A DNA stretch of 64,000 bases from Myrmaecium sp. VS I D KN 1 (taxonomy: Eukaryota; Ascomycota; Dothideomycetes; Valsariales; Valsariaceae): contig JADQAV010000008.1 in assembly GCA_019775845.1 (NCBI GenBank), positions 1 to 64,000 of the forward strand, read 5' to 3'. The notes beneath the pieces were generated by a model that was not told the DNA's origin, did no database searches, and saw only the letters and a list, made by a program, of their open reading frames with translations. Position numbers and translations under genes: made by a program. Shown one piece after another: positions 1 to 58,010 of this stretch. How positions within the stretch are numbered: position 1 is the first letter of the stretch; each line of letters begins with the position of its first letter.

Positions 1-30
1 ACCCTAACCCTAACCCTAACCCTAACCCTA
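1..30. repeat. Telomere repeat (CCCTAA)n
   Basis: Five units of CCCTAA run from the first base, the C-rich strand of the TTAGGG telomere used by most filamentous fungi. The run stops abruptly at base 30 and unique AT-rich DNA follows. This orients the window: left is the chromosome end. Confidence 0.95.
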
Positions 31-4031: not shown

Positions 4032-4377
4032 AAATGCACGTTCCCGGGTTGATCAATTCATGGAAGCGTGCTCATTATACGCGGACTGCTGATATAACTG
4101 TCCATCGAAGAGAGGGCGAAAGGGCGCTTGGCTCCGATAGAGAGAATACTTCGCAGAATGCAAAAGCAATTCGATTAATATAGACTGCTTGCGGTGAGAT
4201 GTCGCTGTTTGATATTGTTTGATCCACACTCACTGATCAGACTCCTCCGACCAAAGAGACAGAAACAACTCCATCAATCCTTCCCTTCCCCATCAACCCC
4301 AGCTCCACTAGACCAATCAAAAGGACGAAAAGAAAGAATAAAAAAGCCCTTGGAAAGGCGAACATGAAAAAAGTGAC
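4032..4377. other. Convergent intergenic spacer
   Basis: About 345 bases between the 3' ends of the preceding plus-strand gene and the pectin methylesterase. I see no gene here; it should hold the 3' untranslated ends of both. Confidence 0.5.
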
Positions 4378-5639
4378 CTAATAGCTGCTGTCAACCCACG
4401 ACTCGCCGTTGACGGGCCAGAGCTCAGCCTTGGTGACAGCGGCGGTAGCAGCGGTGAAGTAATCCGCCTTGCGCTCAGAGGTATCCGCGCCATCGCCGGT
4501 GTTGTTGTATTCCTCGAAGGTGCTGTAGAAGAAGGGTTAGCAGAGGGCACGGAACAAAAGGGGAAAAGAGGAAGAGAAAGGGAAGGAATAAAAACGTACG
4601 GAGTCGCATCCGGCGCCGTGCTCATCGTCGTGTAGCCAGCCGGGTTAACGACATCGGTGAGGACGGAGTTCTGGTACATGACGCGGGCGAGGTCGCGCCA
4701 GGGGCGGCCGAGGTAGACCTGTTCGGTGACGGAGGCGCCGTCGGCGGCGGTGATGGTGCAGTCGTCGAACACGTACCAGGCCGGGTCGTCCTCTTCTTCC
4801 CGGCTCATGGCGGTGATGTAGCCGGGGCCGGAGGCGGCGATGGTGGCTGGGTTGCGAGGTTAGGGATGTTGGATACCCTGCACGTGGCTGAGGGGAGTGC
4901 ACTTACATTCGGAGAACCAGGCGCTGGCGGCGCCGAAGATGAAGTCGGTGGCGCCTGTTGGAAGATGGAGTGAGTATTGATCACTTCCGGCATTGAAGGG
5001 AGGTGAATGCGGGAAACTGACCTTCGACGTAGCAGTTGCTGTAGTATTGATCACCGTCCTTCGCGTACAGGGTGTCCTGGTATCCGATGAAGGAGCAGCC
5101 GTAGAATCCCAGCTTATCGGCATTGGCAGTGACAGCGACGGCCTGTGGGTCACAGTTAGTCAATTCGATCGCAAGAATCGTGAATCTCTCCAACTGACCG
5201 GCGTGCCCTTCCCGTATCCGTTCTCAAAGACGATGTTGTACGCGCTAAAGTCATCGCTGACGATGTTGACAGTGGAGCTCAAGTCCAGCGTACCAGCGCC
5301 ATCGCGGGTAGCCGTGTTGGTGATGGTGACAGTGTTACTTTCATATGAGCTGGTGTCGGTGGTCTCGCCGTAGAGGGTCAGGGCGCCAGCGTAGTCGATG
5401 GTGAGCTGCTCCTCGTACGTGCCGGCGTAGAGGAAGATGCAGGCGTCCGAGCCGGACAGGGAGGCGATGGCGTCGGCGACGCTGCTGTACTCTGAGCCCG
5501 AGGCACCCGAGGCGCGCACGGCAAGACAGCCGGACGGGGGAGAGCTGCGCGCCGTGGAGGTAGCCCGCTTGCTGGGTGTGGGAGCGGCCGCCGCCAGGGC
5601 GGAGAAGACGAAGGTCAGAAGGGAAGCGGGAGAAGGCAT
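4378..5639 (-). CDS. Secreted pectin methylesterase (CE8), 333 aa
   Basis: This enzyme removes methyl groups from pectin outside the cell, so that pectin-cutting enzymes can act. Exons on the minus strand: 5639-5199, 5142-5022, 4954-4907, 4846-4600 and 4522-4378. The introns are 56-77 nt, all GT-AG. The five CE8 regions are present: TYEE near residue 75, AVAV at 148, GYQDTL with Asp170, DFIFG with Asp191, and LGRPW with Arg251. The two Asp and the Arg are the catalytic residues of the family. A signal peptide of about 18 residues (MPSPASLLTFVFSALAAAA) is followed by a KR. Length matches fungal CE8 enzymes (about 330 aa). A TATA box lies about 80 bases upstream. A complete and probably functional gene. 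Confidence 0.93.
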
Positions 5640-9850: not shown

Positions 9851-12800
9851 CTACCCCCCAACTCCCCCAAACTCCTCAACCACACTCCTCGAGCAGCGAT
9901 ACGCCCCCAACACCGTCGAAGGACGCCACACCTTCCCCTCCAGGTCAAAAAACGCCGGTCCGCCCACCCGCAAGCCACGCTCGTCGCCCGTCCACAGCGG
10001 ATGCGCGGGCATGCCGATGACCCGTACGCGCAAGCCGTATCGCAGGTCCTGCGACCCGATGGCCTCGCCGTCCGGGCCGAGGAGGGTGATGAGGTCGGGG
10101 ACGAGGGCTAGGGGGGGTTGTTCTTCTTCTTCTGTTTCGTCGTTCTCTTTTTTGTTGAGGTAGGCAGCGTAGAGGAATTCGTTTTGGAAGGGGATGATGA
10201 GGCGGCGGGTTTCTGGTTGTGCTAAGGAGCCGTTTGCTTCACTCTGTTCTTGTTCCTGCTCTTGTTCGTCTGCTGATAGCGGTCGGATGATGCACCGTCC
10301 GACCGTGTAGCCGCGGCTGATGTCCCGCTGGACGTCGATGATTTTGCCTGTGTACAACAGGCAGCCTGGGGTAACGTCGAACTAATGTAAAAGATGGAGG
10401 TGGTGAGTGATGCACTGACAATACAAAAAAAAAATGTTTTACTTCAGAGACATCCACACGCACGTCACCGCTCAAAGAGACGGGGCGATAAAGGAAGAGA
10501 AGGGGAAAACATACAATCGCCTTCACAACATCCGTCTTCGCCTTCCGCGCCTGATGAATCGCCCGTCCCAGATACCAGGCCTGGGAGACGGTGTTAGGGA
10601 TGGCGAAGTCACGGATCGTCTGGCCGGACAGCGGACGACAGGCCACGGCCACCTTGAGGCCCAGCTCCGTGCAGGCGAGACGGAGCAACTTTTCCAGTCG
10701 CTCGTTGGACTCGGCGCTCTGGTGTGTGGTTGGTGGTTAGCCGGTGTATGCTACTCTTCTGCCGCGATTAGAGGATGGTGGACGTCTCGGACTTACCATC
10801 ACGACGGAGACGTTCCCCTTGGGATCAGCGATGGCGCAGGGCGTAATGGGGGCGCCATATACATACGGAGTCCCTAATATTCCATAGTCAGCCAATTCAT
10901 CCATCCAGATCCCCCCTCCCTCCCTCCCTCACTCACCATGCTCAATCGTCGGATACGCCCTGCCCATCAAATCCGCATCCACCACCGGCCTCCCATACCA
11001 CACCGCCGACGGAAACGTCACCATTCCATTCCCCCCACCAATCTCATCCGCCACCAGGGCATCAAACTCCGCATACCCCATCACCCGATTCACCGCATCC
11101 ACCGCCGCCATGACCTCCGTGCCCGCGGGGATGCGCTCCCCGCTCACGCTCGGCGCCCCGTACCACGAGCCAAACGCGCAGACGGCATCGGGCGCCAGGG
11201 TGATGGCGGGTATGACGCGCATTTTGCCTTCCCCGCCGTTGCGCAGGCATTGCAACCCGACGAGGTATTGGAGGTAGGAGGGTCCGCCGCCGCCGGTGCC
11301 GAGGACGCCCGTGCCCGTGGCGATGAATTCGAGGTCCACGGCGGAGAGGTACCAGACCCCGTTGCGGACGCAGGGACGGTAGGTTGGGATGTCGATGTGG
11401 AGGGAGGGTTTGGCGTCGAGGGGTGGCGTGGAGGGAGACGGTGAGATGGATTTTGCTTCTTTTGGTGTGAATGCCGCTTCGTCGTCGTCGCTGCTTTCGT
11501 CCAAGACATCGTGTTCGCTGTCAGTTGGCGTGCTCCTCGCATCCTTCTCACTCGGAAGAGCCAGCTTGCCGACCGCCTTAACGACAAAGCGCGTCGCTTT
11601 ATTAGTCACATATTGCAACGGATACTTTTCCAGCTCAGCGATATGCACATCCGCCGGATCCGCGCCCTTCGCCACCGCCATCGCAATCGCCTTCGCCTCC
11701 ACAGCCTTGCGGACGGCGTTCTCATCTCTTCCTTCCAGAATCTCAATGACATCGACCTCGCCCGCAACCTTCGCAATCGCAGCACCAACCGCGTTCGCGG
11801 AGCCGTGATGCGGCGGACGAATGCACTCGACCACCCCGTTGAGGGGATCCATCTGGATGATAGAACCGCCGCCGACCATGAGAGCAACCACAGGCGCGGC
11901 GGAGACCTTCATCTCGTCGATGACAGCCTCGAGCATCTTCTTGATCCGTCGACGCGCCCGGTCAACCACGACCGGAGGGATCTTTTCTCTCACCCTCCCC
12001 TGATCGCCGACACCCGCATCCGCTCCCGCCGCGACCACAACATCCGTCGCCGTCATCACATCCCCGCCAAAGACCAGAGCTCGCTCCTGAATCCGATGCC
12101 CAACCGAGTCCGGTCCAACAGTAACCTCATCCCGCTCCTCATCCACACGCACCACACTCCCGCCCCCCAACCCAATCGACCGCACCTCCGGCATCGAAAA
12201 CGCCGTGCGCACCCCGCCCACCTCCACAAACCCGGGCGCCTGGCGCGGAAAACCCGACGGCAGGAGAGCACACACATCCGTCGTCGTCCCCCCCACATCC
12301 ACCACGACAACCTGGCGCTCCATCCCCCGATTCTGTTGCTCCCGGTCCAAGCCCGCCAAAAACGCCGCGCCCGCCATGCTATTCGTCGGCCCACTCGCAA
12401 AGCTGCGAATCGGGTAGTGCGCCGCAACGCGAGCGTCCGTCAGGGTGCCATCGTTCTGGGTAAGATACAGGCGCGCACAGGGGAGACGCAGGCGAGCCAT
12501 CGCCCGACGAAAGCCGCGCACCGTGCGCTGGGCCAGCGGGAGGATGGCAGCGTTAAGGATGGTGGCGTTTTCGCGCGCGAGCAGGCCGATGCCGGCGATG
12601 GGGTGGGAGCAGGTGATGTGGAAGGAGGGGTTGTGGGTGAGGAGGAGCTGTTTGCAGCGTGCTTCGTGGGCGCCGCGGTGGTCGAGGGGGGCGAAGATGC
12701 TGATGAGGGCGATGGTGGTGATGTTCGCGTGCTGGAGGTGGGTGGCTGTGGCGGCGATTTGGGAGGGGTTGAGGGGGGTGATTTCGCGGCCGTCAATTTC

Positions 12801-13316
12801 GAGGCCTGGGTGTAGGTAGGAACGAGTTAGATTCACAAGTTTTTCTGGGGTGTTTGGTGTGATGGAAGACTCACCCCCGTCAAGGTAAAAGACAGGCCCT
12901 TCGATAATCCCCCGCAACGTCGGCGGGAAGTCAGTAAAAGGCGGGAGCTGGCGGGTAAAAGGCCCACAGAGGCGGATGACGGCCACCCGACTCAGGCGGC
13001 GGGCGTCGACCTCGACGACGGCGTTGACGAAGTGAGTGGTTCCAATGGCGACGCTGCGGACCTCGTCACGGGCGACCTGCGATTGGGCCAGGACCTGCTC
13101 GACCGCGTTGGCGATGCCGGTGGTCACGTCTGGGGTTGTTGGGTGCTTGGATGAGGCGAGCACGCCCCGGGAAGGTGAGTCGACTAGGCGCGTGTCGAGG
13201 ATGGCTGCGTCGGTGTTGGTCTGGTGGACGAAGAATGGTGGAGTTAGCTTAGTAAAGGAGAGGGAGGGGGGGAAGTAAATACGTACACCACCAACGTCGA
13301 CCCCGATGCGATACAT
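9851..13316 (-). CDS. Hydantoinase/oxoprolinase fused to DUF917, 1018 aa
   Basis: Members of this family open cyclic amides such as hydantoins or 5-oxoproline, usually at the cost of ATP; the substrate here is not known. Exons on the minus strand: 13316-13287, 13220-12875, 12805-10937, 10873-10797, 10718-10515 and 10381-9851. All introns are GT-AG, 63-133 nt. The first exon encodes just ten residues, and splicing completes the N-terminal GVDVGGTNTDAA nucleotide-binding motif. A second one, VVDVGGTTTDV, lies in the middle, followed by glycine-rich GLGGGSV and MVGGGSI. An acidic, serine-rich linker (DSEHDVLDESSDDDEA) separates this from the C-terminal DUF917 part, which begins near EFIATGTGVLGTGGGG. 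The product looks cytosolic, with no signal peptide. It stands head-to-head with an NCS1 permease, suggesting joint control and an uptake-plus-hydrolysis pathway. Confidence 0.92.
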
Positions 13317-13996
13317 GATGACCGCAGAAGGGGATGAAGAAGTGATGAGAATGAAGTGGATAAGTGTGAGTAGTTTAAGAGGGAGGGTAGATGGTACGGC
13401 ACAGCACGCATCAATGATTAACTCCCCCCACTCTTCCCTCAGCATTCACTGCAACCTAGACTGGGATGAAATATGTGGTGGACGATAAGGAGGGAGTGAT
13501 TCCATCCATATCCGATTTACATTCACATTCACATCTCTAGTCCAAGGTGCTCCGGACAGGGAATGCCGGAGAACCCCGCACTCTGTGTGAGGGGAAAGCC
13601 TTGTTCAACCCTAACCCTAGTACTTCCCCCTCGCCAATCTCAGCCTGATCAGTCACATCCTCTCCTCGACCTTCTCCATTCCGACCGGCTTATCGCTTCT
13701 CCTTCCTTATCACCGGATGATCAGCCTCGTCGTCACTACGTACTGCAGTCGTACTGTTCTGTCCATACCGTATCATCCCCCACTCACCACCACGCTGGCC
13801 AGACTCGTCATGTTGGATGGCGCGACCGGCATCTGAGTCGCTGATAACTACTGAGTGACCCCGGCCAGACGATCGGGAGTCGTATACAGACATATCTCTC
13901 TACATAGGTACCCGTACATCGCCATCCTCTCTTCACTTAGAGTCGAATATATCAATCGTCCTCAACCTCGCAAGACGATCGACAAGACACAACACC
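13317..13996. promoter_or_regulatory. Divergent promoter region of hydantoinase and permease genes
   Basis: 680 bases between two head-to-head start codons, so both promoters must lie here. It contains a telomere-like CAACCCTAACCCTAG at 13606-13620. I see no other clear operator. A shared control region is an inference from the arrangement. Confidence 0.5.
13606..13620. promoter_or_regulatory. Telomere-like motif (telobox) in divergent promoter
   Basis: CAACCCTAACCCTAG, two CCCTAA units, about 290 bases from the hydantoinase ATG and 380 from the permease ATG. It is a candidate site for a TTAGGG-binding factor. The similar motif near 8960 has the opposite orientation. Confidence 0.4.
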
Positions 13997-54104: not shown

Positions 54105-55010
54105 ATGCCCTCCGCAACCGGCTCCTACATCCCCCTCGACACCTTGCCCGAGCTACGAGCCATTACACAAACCGCCCTGCACGCGCTGGGCGAGCTACGC
54201 GCCTCGCCGCGGGTGCGCCGGCTGCAATTCCAGCACAACGTCGAAAGCAAGGACGTCTACCGGCTAGTGGTGCACGCGCTATACACGCTCGACTCGCTCG
54301 ACCGGGCCGTGGAGCGGTGTCGAGAGGTGCTGGAGGAGGGTCATCGGACGGGCGAGTTGCGGGATGTGCAGGAGGGGGAGGGGTGTGAGTTTGTGAGGGA
54401 GAGAAGGAGGAGGGCGAGGGGAGGTGATGGAGGGGAGGTGGAGGAAGGTGAGGAGACGGATGATACGGGGGAGAGGCTGAGGGCGCAGGATCTCTGGCCT
54501 CTACGTCGGACGACGGGCGGGAAGCGGTTACCTCGGATGGCGGGACAGGATCCGCAGCAGGTGTTGGCTGAGCCGAGACGCTCGCCTAGATTCGTTGGTA
54601 CTGTCGATGCGGGTACGGGCAGGGTCTTTCCCGCGGAGATCCCTGATTCGCAGCAGCCGGAGGAGAGCTTAAGGACGGTGTCGACGGTGGTGGGGAGTCA
54701 GAGTGAGACGCAGAGTGAGACTCAGAGTCAGAGTTACGGGCAGAGTTACGGGCAGAGTCAGGGGCACAGTCAGGGGCACAGCCAAGGGCAGAGTCACGGA
54801 CAGAGCTACGGACAAGGTCAAGGACATAGTCAAGGACATAGTCAAGGACACAATCAAGGACAGAGTCAGCGGCACAGCCAAGGACTCAGTCAAGAGGAGA
54901 CTCAGAGTCAAGCAGAGACCCACAGTCAAGAAGAGACTCAAAGTCAGACGCCGACTCAGAGTTCAACACAGAGTCAGGGATACAGTCAAGGACAAATCTG
55001 GCGATACTAA
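54105..55010 (+). CDS. Protein with Q/S/G/H-rich repeat tail, 301 aa
   Basis: Residues 1-95 form a helical, charged domain (LPELRAITQTALHALGELRA, then VESKDVYRLVVHALYTLDSL) that I do not recognise. A Gly/Arg/Glu-rich linker follows. From about residue 198 to the end the chain is almost only Gln, Ser, Gly, His, Tyr, Glu and Thr, in repeats such as SQGHSQGQ, SYGQ and SQEETQ. The DNA there (54697-54995) is a 6-12-bp tandem repeat. Such composition is typical of prion-like or phase-separating domains. No signal peptide; no intron is needed. ATG 54105 follows CCACC. Repeat number probably varies between strains. Its function is unknown. Confidence 0.7.
   Translation: MPSATGSYIPLDTLPELRAITQTALHALGELRASPRVRRLQFQHNVESKDVYRLVVHALYTLDSLDRAVERCREVLEEGHRTGELRDVQEGEGCEFVRERRRRARGGDGGEVEEGEETDDTGERLRAQDLWPLRRTTGGKRLPRMAGQDPQQVLAEPRRSPRFVGTVDAGTGRVFPAEIPDSQQPEESLRTVSTVVGSQSETQSETQSQSYGQSYGQSQGHSQGHSQGQSHGQSYGQGQGHSQGHSQGHNQGQSQRHSQGLSQEETQSQAETHSQEETQSQTPTQSSTQSQGYSQGQIWRY
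54697..54995 (+). repeat. Coding minisatellite (CAGAGTCAGGGGCACAGT-like)
   Basis: Units of 6-12 bases built on CAGAGT, CAGGGGCACAGT and CAAGGACATAGT keep the reading frame of the Q/S-rich protein. Confidence 0.8.
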
Positions 55011-55678
55011 GTCCGCTTGAGGCACGATCTCATCCTCTTCAGTATCTCCAAACGATAGCCAAAGGATCAAAAAACTACCACCAGAACTGGGAATTACTTG
55101 TTTTATCCCAGAAAATCGTCACTAGCTCGGATCCGAGCAGGATCGTGCTGATAGCAATGGATCAGTGTCATACAATGCCCCTTCATCCCTCATGCATGTG
55201 AGATGAGACATAGACAACTCAACTGTAGACCCATGCTTGACTTCAGATCATCTCTTCCTGCCGGGGTCAATCCTTCAAACACTGTGAAAGCAGATCTTAG
55301 TTTGAACAGCGTAGAGCGGGTAAACAGTTAACGACGAGCAGTCGACGATGACACAGGTCGATGTAGAAAGAGTGTCAGGATAAGAAGTAATCAGTTCAAA
55401 TCTAATTGTGCTGGCTATTGAAATACTGCGAGAATGTATGCGTACATGGTCAGGGACTGATACCTATCCTATGCACTCGGGATAATGCATGACTATAATA
55501 AACAGTCCTGATTCCCTATAGCATACATGCGTGCCGCAACGGTTTACTATTTTCTAATAGATCCGTCTAAAATGATATATATTTCAAGCGTCGGAGCTCT
55601 TAGACTGAATATAGAAAAAAAAATTAGGAAAAAAATAGGAATAAAATAGGAATAAAATAGGAAAGAAAGGGAATTACT
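55011..55678. other. Spacer ending in an A-rich tract
   Basis: About 670 bases with no gene. 55608-55670 is an A-rich tract with repeated AATAGGAATAAAATAGG. A similar A-rich tract precedes the related repeat at 57130. Confidence 0.5.
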
Positions 55679-55749
55679 ATTCGTACACAGAGGTTTTAAG
55701 TACTATCTCTACATAATTTAATCCGATCAATCTGCTGAGACCCTATCAA

Positions 55750-56035
55750 ACCGGCTGCCCACGCAGGCTCGAAGCCTCTTGCGTAGGCTCGTAGGCGCTT
55801 GCGCAGGCTCTGGTACAGGCTCTGGTACAGGCTCTGGTACAGGCTCAAGCTCTTTCACGCAGGCTCTCACGCAGGGCTTCTTAAGTAAGCTCTGGCAGGC
55901 TCGCGCGGGTGCTCTCGCATGCCCTTTCTTAAACCCTCTTATTGGTCTTCTGACAAGCTCCTTCGCCAGGGTCTTTCAAGGGCCTTTCGCAGGGCCTTTT
56001 GCTGGACCTTTTGCGGGCTGCCAGTTCTGATGGGG
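55750..56035. repeat. 12-bp minisatellite, CTCTGGTACAGG type
   Basis: Units of 12 bases, for example three consecutive CTCTGGTACAGG, then diverged units such as CTCTCACGCAGG. It lies left of the 970-bp element. Confidence 0.75.
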
Positions 56036-56040
56036 TCTTG

Positions 56041-57010
56041 TACGGAATACGGTAACTAGCTTCGGGCCATAACTAAGAACACCAAAACCTGAGACCGGGC
56101 TGACATACTACGCCGCGGGGGATTAGCCAGCGATCCTACTAGGCCTACGGCGAATAATTAAGACTTAGATAATTATAATGGGAATCTAAATAAGCCTATA
56201 GTCTTAATAAAGCTTTACGTACATCCTCGTAGGCCCCCTCGTAGGCTCTAGTATAGAAGCCTCGCAAGCCCTTTCGCAGGCTCCCACGCAGGCTTCCACG
56301 CAGGCCCTCACGCAGGCTTCTACGCAGGCTTCTACGCAGGCTTCTACGCAGGCTTACACGCAGGCCTCTACGTAGGCTCGCTCGTATACTATTAGAGCGC
56401 CCTTAGTAGGCCTATAATAGGGCCTGCGAGGAAGTCTAAGGGTGCTTTAAGGGCCTGCGAGTAAGCCTACGAAAGGACCTGCGAGGAAGCCTAAGGGCGC
56501 TCTAGGGGCCTACGAGGGAGCCTGCGAAAGGGCCTATAAGGAAGCCTACGTAAGGGCCTACGAGGGGGCCTGAGGGCTCTTTAGGGGCCTGCGAGCGAGC
56601 CTGCGAAAGGGCCTGCCAGGAAGGGTGCTAGGGGGCCTGCGTGGAAGCCTGCGTGAGAGCCTGCGTGAGGGCCTGCGCAAGGGCCTGCGTGAGGGCCTAC
56701 GTAAGGGCCTGCGAGAGGGCCTGCGAGGCTTCTATCTGATATTCTTCTTGGTCGTTATAAACGGCTCTACCAGAGCCTCCGTAAAGGGCCTGCGAGAGGG
56801 CCTGTAAGAGGGCCTACGAGAGGGCCTACGTAAAGACCTGCAAGAATTTTAAGCTTTTATATAATACTGGTCCTTCCAATAGTTATTTAAGTCTTATTTT
56901 AATTACTAGCCGTAGGCCTAATAGAATCGCTGGCCGAGTACGGCGTGCCCGCCCGGTCTCAGGGTTTAGTGTTCTTAGTTGTGGCCCGAAGCTAGTTATA
57001 GTATTCCGTA
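56041..57010. mobile_element. 970-bp inverted-repeat element with TCTTG target duplication
   Basis: Bases 56041-56100 and the reverse complement of 56951-57010 match at 55 of 60 positions. Weaker similarity continues further inward (CCAGCGAT, AGGCCTACGGC). The flanks are TCTTG on both sides (56036-56040 and 57011-57015), an exact 5-bp target duplication. The left half carries ACGCAGGCTTCT units and the right half the opposite-strand form GAGGGCCTGCGT, so the whole element is a long imperfect palindrome. No transposase is present. Confidence 0.8.
56255..56860. repeat. 12-bp minisatellite in two opposite blocks
   Basis: 56255-56390 is made of CTTCTACGCAGG-type units. 56410-56860 holds the opposite orientation, GGGCCTGCGAGG and GAGGGCCTGCGT. 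The two blocks could fold into a long hairpin. Confidence 0.75.
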
Positions 57011-57129
57011 TCTTGGCAGATGATCAGATCAGATTATGTATAAATGGTAAAATCTCCGTGTACGAATGGCATTTCACGAAAAAAATAAAAAAAATAAAAA
57101 GAATTTGGAAACTATTCAAAAAGGGACTT

Positions 57130-57210
57130 GCTATTCGTATAGTGCAGTGCGTATATACCTAGATGTTTTACTATTAGTATACGATCTAATCTGATCCCTA
57201 GCAGAAGGAC
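57130..57210 (+). repeat. Third copy of the outer-element end
   Basis: CTATTCGTATAG and the following 70 bases, including ACGATCTAATCTGATC, align in direct orientation with 55677-55745. An A-rich tract comes just before, as at the first copy. No matching right end was found, so this copy looks truncated. Confidence 0.55.
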
Positions 57211-57254
57211 CTGCAAGAGAACTTGTTCAAGGACATATGAAAAGTCCTGCGAAA

Positions 57255-57757
57255 GGAAATTGATAATCGTACAACCCCTATATTACTGCGCGTACAACCC
57301 CCAGATTACTAGACGTATAACCCCCTTCCGATTAGCTTCCGATTGGCTAGAAGCCCTTACGTAGGCCCTTCCGCGGGCTTCCTCGTAGGCTTTTCTCGCT
57401 CTTAGGTAGGCTATCAGGCCCTCAGGCAGGCCCTCACAGAGGCTCCCTCGCAGGCCCTCCCACAGGCTCCCTCGCAGGCCCTCACGTAGGCCCTCACGTA
57501 GGCCCTCACGTAGGCCCTCACGTAGTCCCTCACGTAGTCCCTCCCGCAGAGCCCCTCGCAAGCTCCGGTAGAACCGTATAGGCGCCTCGCAGGCCTTACG
57601 AAGGACCCCTCGCAGGCATAATACCGGGCGTTGAGGAGAATCAGTATACTGCCAGCCTATACCGCGTGTTTCTAACCAATCGGAAGGGGGGTTGTACGTC
57701 TAGTAATCTGGGGGTTGTACGCGCAGTAATGTAGGGGTTGTACGATTATCAATTTCC
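57255..57757. mobile_element. 503-bp inverted-repeat element with 8-bp target duplication
   Basis: The left end GGAAATTGATAATCGTACAA and the inverted right end agree for about 77 bases with only two differences and one indel. Both differences are C/T in a CA context. The flanks are CTGCGAAA on both sides (57247-57254 and 57758-57765). Removing the element and one flank rebuilds a regular 12-bp array, so it inserted into that array. An 8-bp duplication is typical of hAT-like elements. The interior has its own 12-bp array (CCCTCACGTAGG) and no transposase. Confidence 0.85.
57360..57560. repeat. 12-bp minisatellite inside the 503-bp element
   Basis: Units CCCTCACGTAGG and CTCCCTCGCAGG. On the minus strand they keep an open frame encoding LREG repeats (57283-57561), a by-product of the 12-base period. 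Confidence 0.75.
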
Positions 57758-57765
57758 CTGCGAAA

Positions 57766-58010
57766 AGCCCTGCGAAAAGCCCTGCGACAGGGCCTGCGAG
57801 GGGGCCTGCGAGGGGGCCTGCGAGGGGGCGACCCGCGCGACCCCCGCCAGAGCTTATGAGAGAAGCCCGGCGTAGAAGCCTACGTGAGAGCCTGCCAAAG
57901 CCTGCCCTGCATAAGAGAGCCTATACCAGAGCCTGTACCAAAGCCTGCACCAAAGCCTGTACCAAAGCCTGCACCAGAGCCTGCGCGCCTGCGCGCCTGC
58001 CTGCAGCTCT
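57766..58010. repeat. 12-bp minisatellite, GGCCTGCGAGGG and CAAAGCCTGTAC types
   Basis: The array continues to the right of the 503-bp element: GGGGGCCTGCGA units, then AAAGCCTGCACC and AAAGCCTGTACC units to about 57985. Confidence 0.75.

Follow-up and report, generated by a model that had tools for sequence, protein, structure and literature searches.

A nest of non-autonomous DNA transposons carrying 12-bp arrays between different terminal repeats in a Myrmaecium genome

Introduction

MITEs are usually classified into families on the basis of their ends, and their interiors are regarded as debris. How, then, do arrays of one 12-bp unit come to lie between different ends? The question is raised by positions 55669-57983 of the window, i.e., the whole 64,000-nucleotide stretch analyzed here, where several arrays with the core CCTGCG or its complement occur together with three sets of terminal inverted repeats. 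The initial annotation described these as inverted-repeat elements with common 12-bp arrays, and both the arrays and the terminal repeats were verified. The region is a nest of non-autonomous DNA transposons, several of which are inserted within others. The window comprises the first 64 kb of contig C64 in a genome of 25.66 Mb and 66 contigs. The contig opens with five ACCCTA repeats (window 1-30) and seems to start in a telomere, which would place the nest approximately 56 kb from the chromosome end.

Results

Order of insertion in the window

The nest consists of elements A, B, A2 and C, all of which contain 12-bp arrays, although the arrays have gaps. Element sizes range from approximately 400 to 1,430 bp, i.e., from MITE- to foldback-sized. 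Element A (55669-57077, plus strand) was detected by a motif scan allowing up to 4 mismatches. It has the tip GGGAATTACTATTCG and degenerate terminal repeats, and measures approximately 434 bp without the inner element B. Its flanks, GAAAGAAA at 55661-55668 and GAAAAAAA at 57078-57085, match at 7 of 8 positions in low-complexity sequence, which taken alone is weak evidence of a target duplication. The array of A (55762-55905, minus strand) is in the CGCAGG sense. Two relatives surfaced, only through the motif scan: one with a perfect duplication, TTAGTTAA (L050 2790-3287), and a single end in L051. A genome query spanning the right end of A and the start of A2 matched itself alone.

Element B (56041-57010, plus strand), with the ends TACGGAATAC and GTATTCCGTA, is inserted in A. 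Its terminal inverted repeats (56041-56176 and 56879-57010) are 77% identical over 141 columns and are flanked by the 5-bp target duplication TCTTG at 56036-56040 and 57011-57015. Between them lie a left array in the CGCAGG sense (56228-56382, minus strand) and right arrays in the CCTGCG sense (56453-56835, plus strand), the latter broken by a 54-nt landmark outside the arrays, LM1 (56725-56780, plus strand). When B and one copy of TCTTG are deleted, A aligns through the joint with its relatives in L050 and L051.

To the right, the motif scan detected the left end of an A relative, A2 (57123-57254, plus strand), with no right end found. Directly after it follows element C (57255-57757, plus strand), with the ends GGAAATTGATAATCGTACAACCCC and 23-bp subterminal repeats. 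The terminal inverted repeats of C (57250-57325 and 57687-57762) are 95% identical, and its own array (approximately 57360-57554, minus strand) is in the CGCAGG/CGTAGG sense. The 8-bp target duplication of C is CTGCGAAA, found at 57247-57254, where it is itself within a 12-bp unit, and at 57758-57765. A CCTGCG-sense array on the right (57756-57983, plus strand) continues the register across the insertion and is read as the remainder of the A2 body, so that C sits in an array read as that of A2. Deleting C with one CTGCGAAA leaves the 12-bp register unbroken. Paralogous sites in the same genome served as empty sites.

Since A, A2 and C have the common tip GGGA(A/C)TT..TATTCG, the window holds two clearly unrelated end types rather than the three or more first proposed; a third, E, is found elsewhere in the genome.

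Recurrence of ends and arrays in the genome

Both the ends and the 12-bp core recur throughout the genome, and the arrangement is thus not peculiar to this locus. The C-end search gave at least 27 matches grouped into 15 loci, 12 of which contain arrays. The other three are a lone end at C15:177393 and two loci that enter long AT-rich sequence (C66:813738 and C9:62984). For B ends, at least 9 matches at 5 loci (the window copy and four others) were found, with arrays in all five, one of them heavily decayed (L055); this search gave no B-ended element free of arrays. The D end (GAGAATTGCTATTCGCAGAGGCGGGTTTTG) gave at least 10 matches in 7 loci, with arrays in 5 of the 6 read, and the E end (GGACGAACCTAAGGAGCACCACACC) at least 14 matches in 10 loci, with arrays in all 6 read, one of which is an E fragment within another inverted-repeat element. 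At L063 (74-2293) lies a large inverted repeat whose arms span 881 columns at 79% identity, and locus L068 on C42 was covered for approximately 0.5 kb inside its end. Element G (L058 1940-3070), with the ends GGGARACACTATGTG and the 8-bp duplication GAGGCGCG, contains CCTG runs and a complete E, and forms a second nested pair.

Across the 25.66 Mb there are 162 occurrences of the pattern CCTGCGN6CCTGCG, compared to 20 for a reversed-letter control, although part of the 162 consists of simple hexamer runs and not of the 12-bp unit. Ten array loci (L056-L065) were picked from the first 100 of these matches and include none of the listed tandem matches on C17, C20 and C25. Recognized ends were present in 8 of the ten (4 D, 3 E and 1 E fragment), and no convincing terminal repeats were found at L056 and L064. 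These two loci (L056 3581-4006 and L064 3354-3779) have 431 columns in common at 84% identity, reaching far past the array, and their common sequence is a further repeat family. L066 (C35:343900-345000), which has LM1 and no known ends, is a further array body; next to it lies a PF17667 (fungal protein kinase) match.

In B, E and H (H comprising L056 and L066), GCCTGCGTGAGG is the most frequent unit, and in D it is tied for commonest. The commonest C unit is GCCTACGTGAGG, and the units of A differ. Arrays in both senses were found in B and in three E copies, while the array has a single sense in the window C and mainly a single one in D copies.

Target duplications and the position of the arrays

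For 26 elements both ends could be placed. This sample excludes loci with one clear end (L047-L049, L051, L062, L063 and L070) as well as L061 and L068. Target duplications are perfect in 20 of the 26 and match at 7 of 8 positions in four more; the two that fail are B_L053 (3/5) and C_L036 (2/8). Nine controls with slid flanks gave no perfect duplication in any of the 26, a control that flatters A, D, E and G, whose boundaries were set with flanks visible, while the C ends were placed with a motif settled in advance of inspecting the flanks. Duplications are 5 bp in B copies and 8 bp in all other families, with no TTAA preference. Four of the five B copies have clear ones (TCTTG, TCCTC, CCGCG and GCTAT), and the C copy in L050, which starts at 4045, has a perfect one.

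The 400-bp flanks are free of array units in 21 of the 26 elements, with the flanks of L067 and L069 being shorter than 400 bp. Units do occur in the flanks of five elements: A, B and C of the window, C_L024 (with 2 units) and E_L058, an element nested in G. Because the arrays are internal while most flanks lack them, they are mostly cargo that moves inside the elements and rarely insertion targets. This agrees with the earlier suggestion that the elements carry and spread the arrays. The other suggestion, that arrays attract insertions, fared poorly: nesting in another element of this kind was seen for three of the 26 (B inside A, C inside A2 and E inside G), of which C alone lies plainly inside an array. 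Nesting is thus the exception among the copies, and it is what makes the window striking.

A common body between different ends

A, C and D have a common tip and 8-bp duplications, and E and G have 8-bp duplications and begin with GG. B and E are end types separate from A/C/D. The ends had been called unrelated, which holds for B and E against this group and not for A against C, given their common tip.

Beyond the unit itself, LM1 recurs in B, in part of the C and D copies and at two loci lacking known ends, with z values of 6-35 (200 shuffles each). It is full in four of the five B copies and partial in the fifth. Among D entries it is present in L061 (z 22) and L063 (z 8.8) and absent from the other four, and among C copies it reaches z 11.4 in L050, the other 11 having only 18-21 nt (z 3.5-7.5). 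At the two H loci z is approximately 25. A whole-genome search with LM1 found a D copy on C29 at E 2e-8. The same 200-shuffle comparison did not find LM1 in A, A2, E or I (L064). A second mark, AGGACGATYT, is present in 3 of the 5 B copies and in 3 of the 6 D entries, and the remaining 24 entries lack it. BLAST between families with arrays masked gave B-H matches, one C-H match and matches of the A tip, and no B-C or B-D match; the relatedness of B to C and D comes from the LM1 genome search and the LM1 shuffle tests. E has only the 12-bp unit in common with the other families. Judged from these sequence comparisons, B and some of the C and D copies have related bodies despite the different ends and duplication length of B.

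An indirect link between C ends and MULE sequence

MULE transposons make target duplications of approximately 8-11 bp, and with the exception of C_L036 the A, C and D copies that could be placed have 8 bp. A long C-ended element of 2,834 bp on C66 (L046 2741-5574), with the duplication ATATAGAA, contains no 12-bp units. This relic also carries a subterminal tandem repeat with a 22-bp unit, present in 6.5 copies at 5419-5561. Its interior is 72% identical to C13:518651-520874 and 74% to C34:216377-217719, where the MULE domain PF10551 scores 45.9 and 37.8 bits, respectively (Pfam cut-off 27.6), with stops inside. Two frames of the long element resemble a MULE transposase by eye, which a Pfam scan of this copy (with X at stops) did not confirm, giving no MULE match and one unrelated weak match (E 0.16). 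Because the C13 and C34 loci are not among the C-end matches and the scan of the C66 element was negative, the link to MULE runs through the interior only. C-type ends thus appear to be tied indirectly to Mutator-like (MULE) sequence. No equivalent link came to light for A or D, and no intact transposase was seen in these searches. Further MULE-domain matches with stops lie at C23:42689, C10:2612416 and C66:526721, and these three loci are possible partners of D or E ends.

Decay of one B copy

Compared with the majority sequence of the other four B copies, B_L055 carries differences at 212 sites, and C>T or G>A changes make up 180 of these. By next base, the C>T changes are distributed as G 33, T 22, A 16 and C 9, i.e., without the classical CpA preference. 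The ratio (CpA+TpG)/(ApC+GpT) is 0.08 in this copy compared to 1.15 for the window. The decay is RIP-like in kind, but the CpA preference is absent in the comparison with other B copies.

Discussion

Our results are probably best explained by a nest of non-autonomous transposons in which the array is cargo and the body has been passed between end sets. This reading draws directly on the ends, the duplications, the order of nesting, the recurrence in the genome, the movement, the cargo role of the arrays and the common body, which comprises the unit and in part LM1. The terminal repeats would be what a transposase made elsewhere recognizes in trans. A, C and D may have been moved by MULE transposases, and B by another enzyme with a 5-bp stagger. 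A genome search for hAT transposase (PF05699) gave no match, and neither did control genomes. The presumed transfer of the body would have occurred by recombination between arrays of nested or neighboring elements, or alternatively by template switching during repair of an excision gap. Both processes need only short homology, which the arrays supply. Slippage would make the arrays grow and shrink. Later C-to-T damage, RIP-like in kind, has decayed some copies. A more far-reaching version, which we put forward tentatively and with slightly more doubt than belief, is that a single selfish minisatellite body has been passed among end sets served by different transposases, one a MULE and the other an enzyme with a 5-bp stagger that is perhaps IS3EU-like. 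The body would then be the spreading lineage, a second-order parasite of DNA transposons.

The alternative that survives best is simple descent from one ancestral foldback element, whose ends changed rapidly and whose arrays were held alike by slippage and conversion, with no exchange of ends. The tip and 8-bp duplications of A, C and D, and the 8-bp duplications and initial GG of E and G, are what such descent would leave, and for A, C and D it fits at least as well as exchange. It does not fit B, which has other ends and 5-bp duplications in four of five copies, yet holds the 12-bp unit and LM1 in its body, and we therefore regard simple descent as an unlikely account of the whole.

The units might instead be extra transposase binding sites, selected for better transposition. 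Galileo offers a precedent, as its internal repeats are described as holding additional transposase binding sites (PMC4079207). However, the unit occurs between ends with 5-bp and with 8-bp duplications, suggesting two enzymes, and the 2.8-kb C-ended element does without it, which makes this explanation improbable. Less probable still is that arrays are insertion hot spots, where unrelated MITEs collect in older 12-bp minisatellites. This would account for C inserted in a 12-bp array of the window and for B and E_L058 nested in related elements, but not for internal arrays and the many array-free flanks. That the arrays are coding repeats or pieces of host genes is hardly credible: the stop-free run beats the longest of 50 single-base shuffles in 3 of 35 pieces (B_L055, C_window and C_L036) and the array at L066 has its kinase neighbor, but 32 of the 35 do not exceed the shuffles, and both orientations of the array are found within B and E. 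The FunK1 kinase gene (PF17667) at L066 was also considered as the source of the body and rejected, as the searched frames at L056 and L064 were an aldo/keto reductase and a histidine kinase instead.

Partly similar systems have been described. In the CMITEs of Acropora corals, a well conserved interior whose origin is unknown is enclosed by terminal repeats that differ between the MITE families (PMC2872659), an arrangement of different ends around one interior that is also seen here. As described there, however, all families have TTAA duplications, piggyBac-type tips and a 75-bp single-sequence interior, whereas our elements have 8- or 5-bp duplications and a 12-bp tandem array; the combination of TTAA duplication and piggyBac-type tips was not found here. 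BrickBuilt of Porphyromonas gingivalis has a minisatellite body of 23-nt units between short inverted ends (PMC4596501). In that description it is bacterial, with one end type and direct repeats in one sense, while the elements described here have several types of end, and B and E contain arrays in both senses. Tetris and Galileo are foldback elements whose long inverted arms and internal tandem repeats partly resemble those seen here (PMC4079207), but each is presented as one family with its own repeat, in contrast to one unit across several families, with C and most D mainly in one sense.

Regarding the enzymes, A, C and D resemble MULEs in their 8-bp duplications, and C-type ends in addition through the long element whose interior matches MULE-domain loci. 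Unlike MULEs, all array-bearing copies lack a transposase, and the MULE loci in this genome carry stops. Merlin elements have 8-9-bp duplications, terminal GG and, in several families, internal tandem repeats (PMC8101967). A, C and E likewise have a terminal 5'-GG, whereas D starts with GA, and the long C-ended element is tied to MULE and not to Merlin. B shows a likeness to IS3EU of rust fungi, reported with termini TAYGG..CCRTA, terminal repeats above 30 bp and 6-bp duplications (PMC12730594). The B ends TACGG..CCGTA fit these termini, and the B repeats also exceed 30 bp. As IS3EU duplications are given as 6 bp and those of B are 5 bp (4/5 copies), we do not file B under IS3EU.

Taken from these reports, minisatellites in MITEs, foldback elements, tandem repeats in Merlin and MITEs with a common interior between different ends are already known. 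The novelty claimed in the initial annotation is therefore reduced. Among the papers listed in searches of the open-access literature, with subscription papers mostly outside it, no fungal minisatellite-bodied MITEs or common interiors between different ends were found, nor a single minisatellite body common to elements with 8-bp and with 5-bp duplications. Here the interior appears to outlast the ends, and it is found in elements with different target duplications. If the same is true in other genomes, it would offer a route by which minisatellites spread and interiors switch transposase.

Outside the nest, two open frames in the window were noted. A 301-aa frame at 54105-55010 (plus strand) ends in tandem repeats of 12/18/24/36 bp that are unrelated to the CCTGCG unit, and a Pfam search with this frame gave no match. 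A hydantoinase/oxoprolinase-like frame lies at 10929-13445 (minus strand); its identity to the best 120 listed relatives is at most 60%, and these are, where named, mostly Pezizomycotina.
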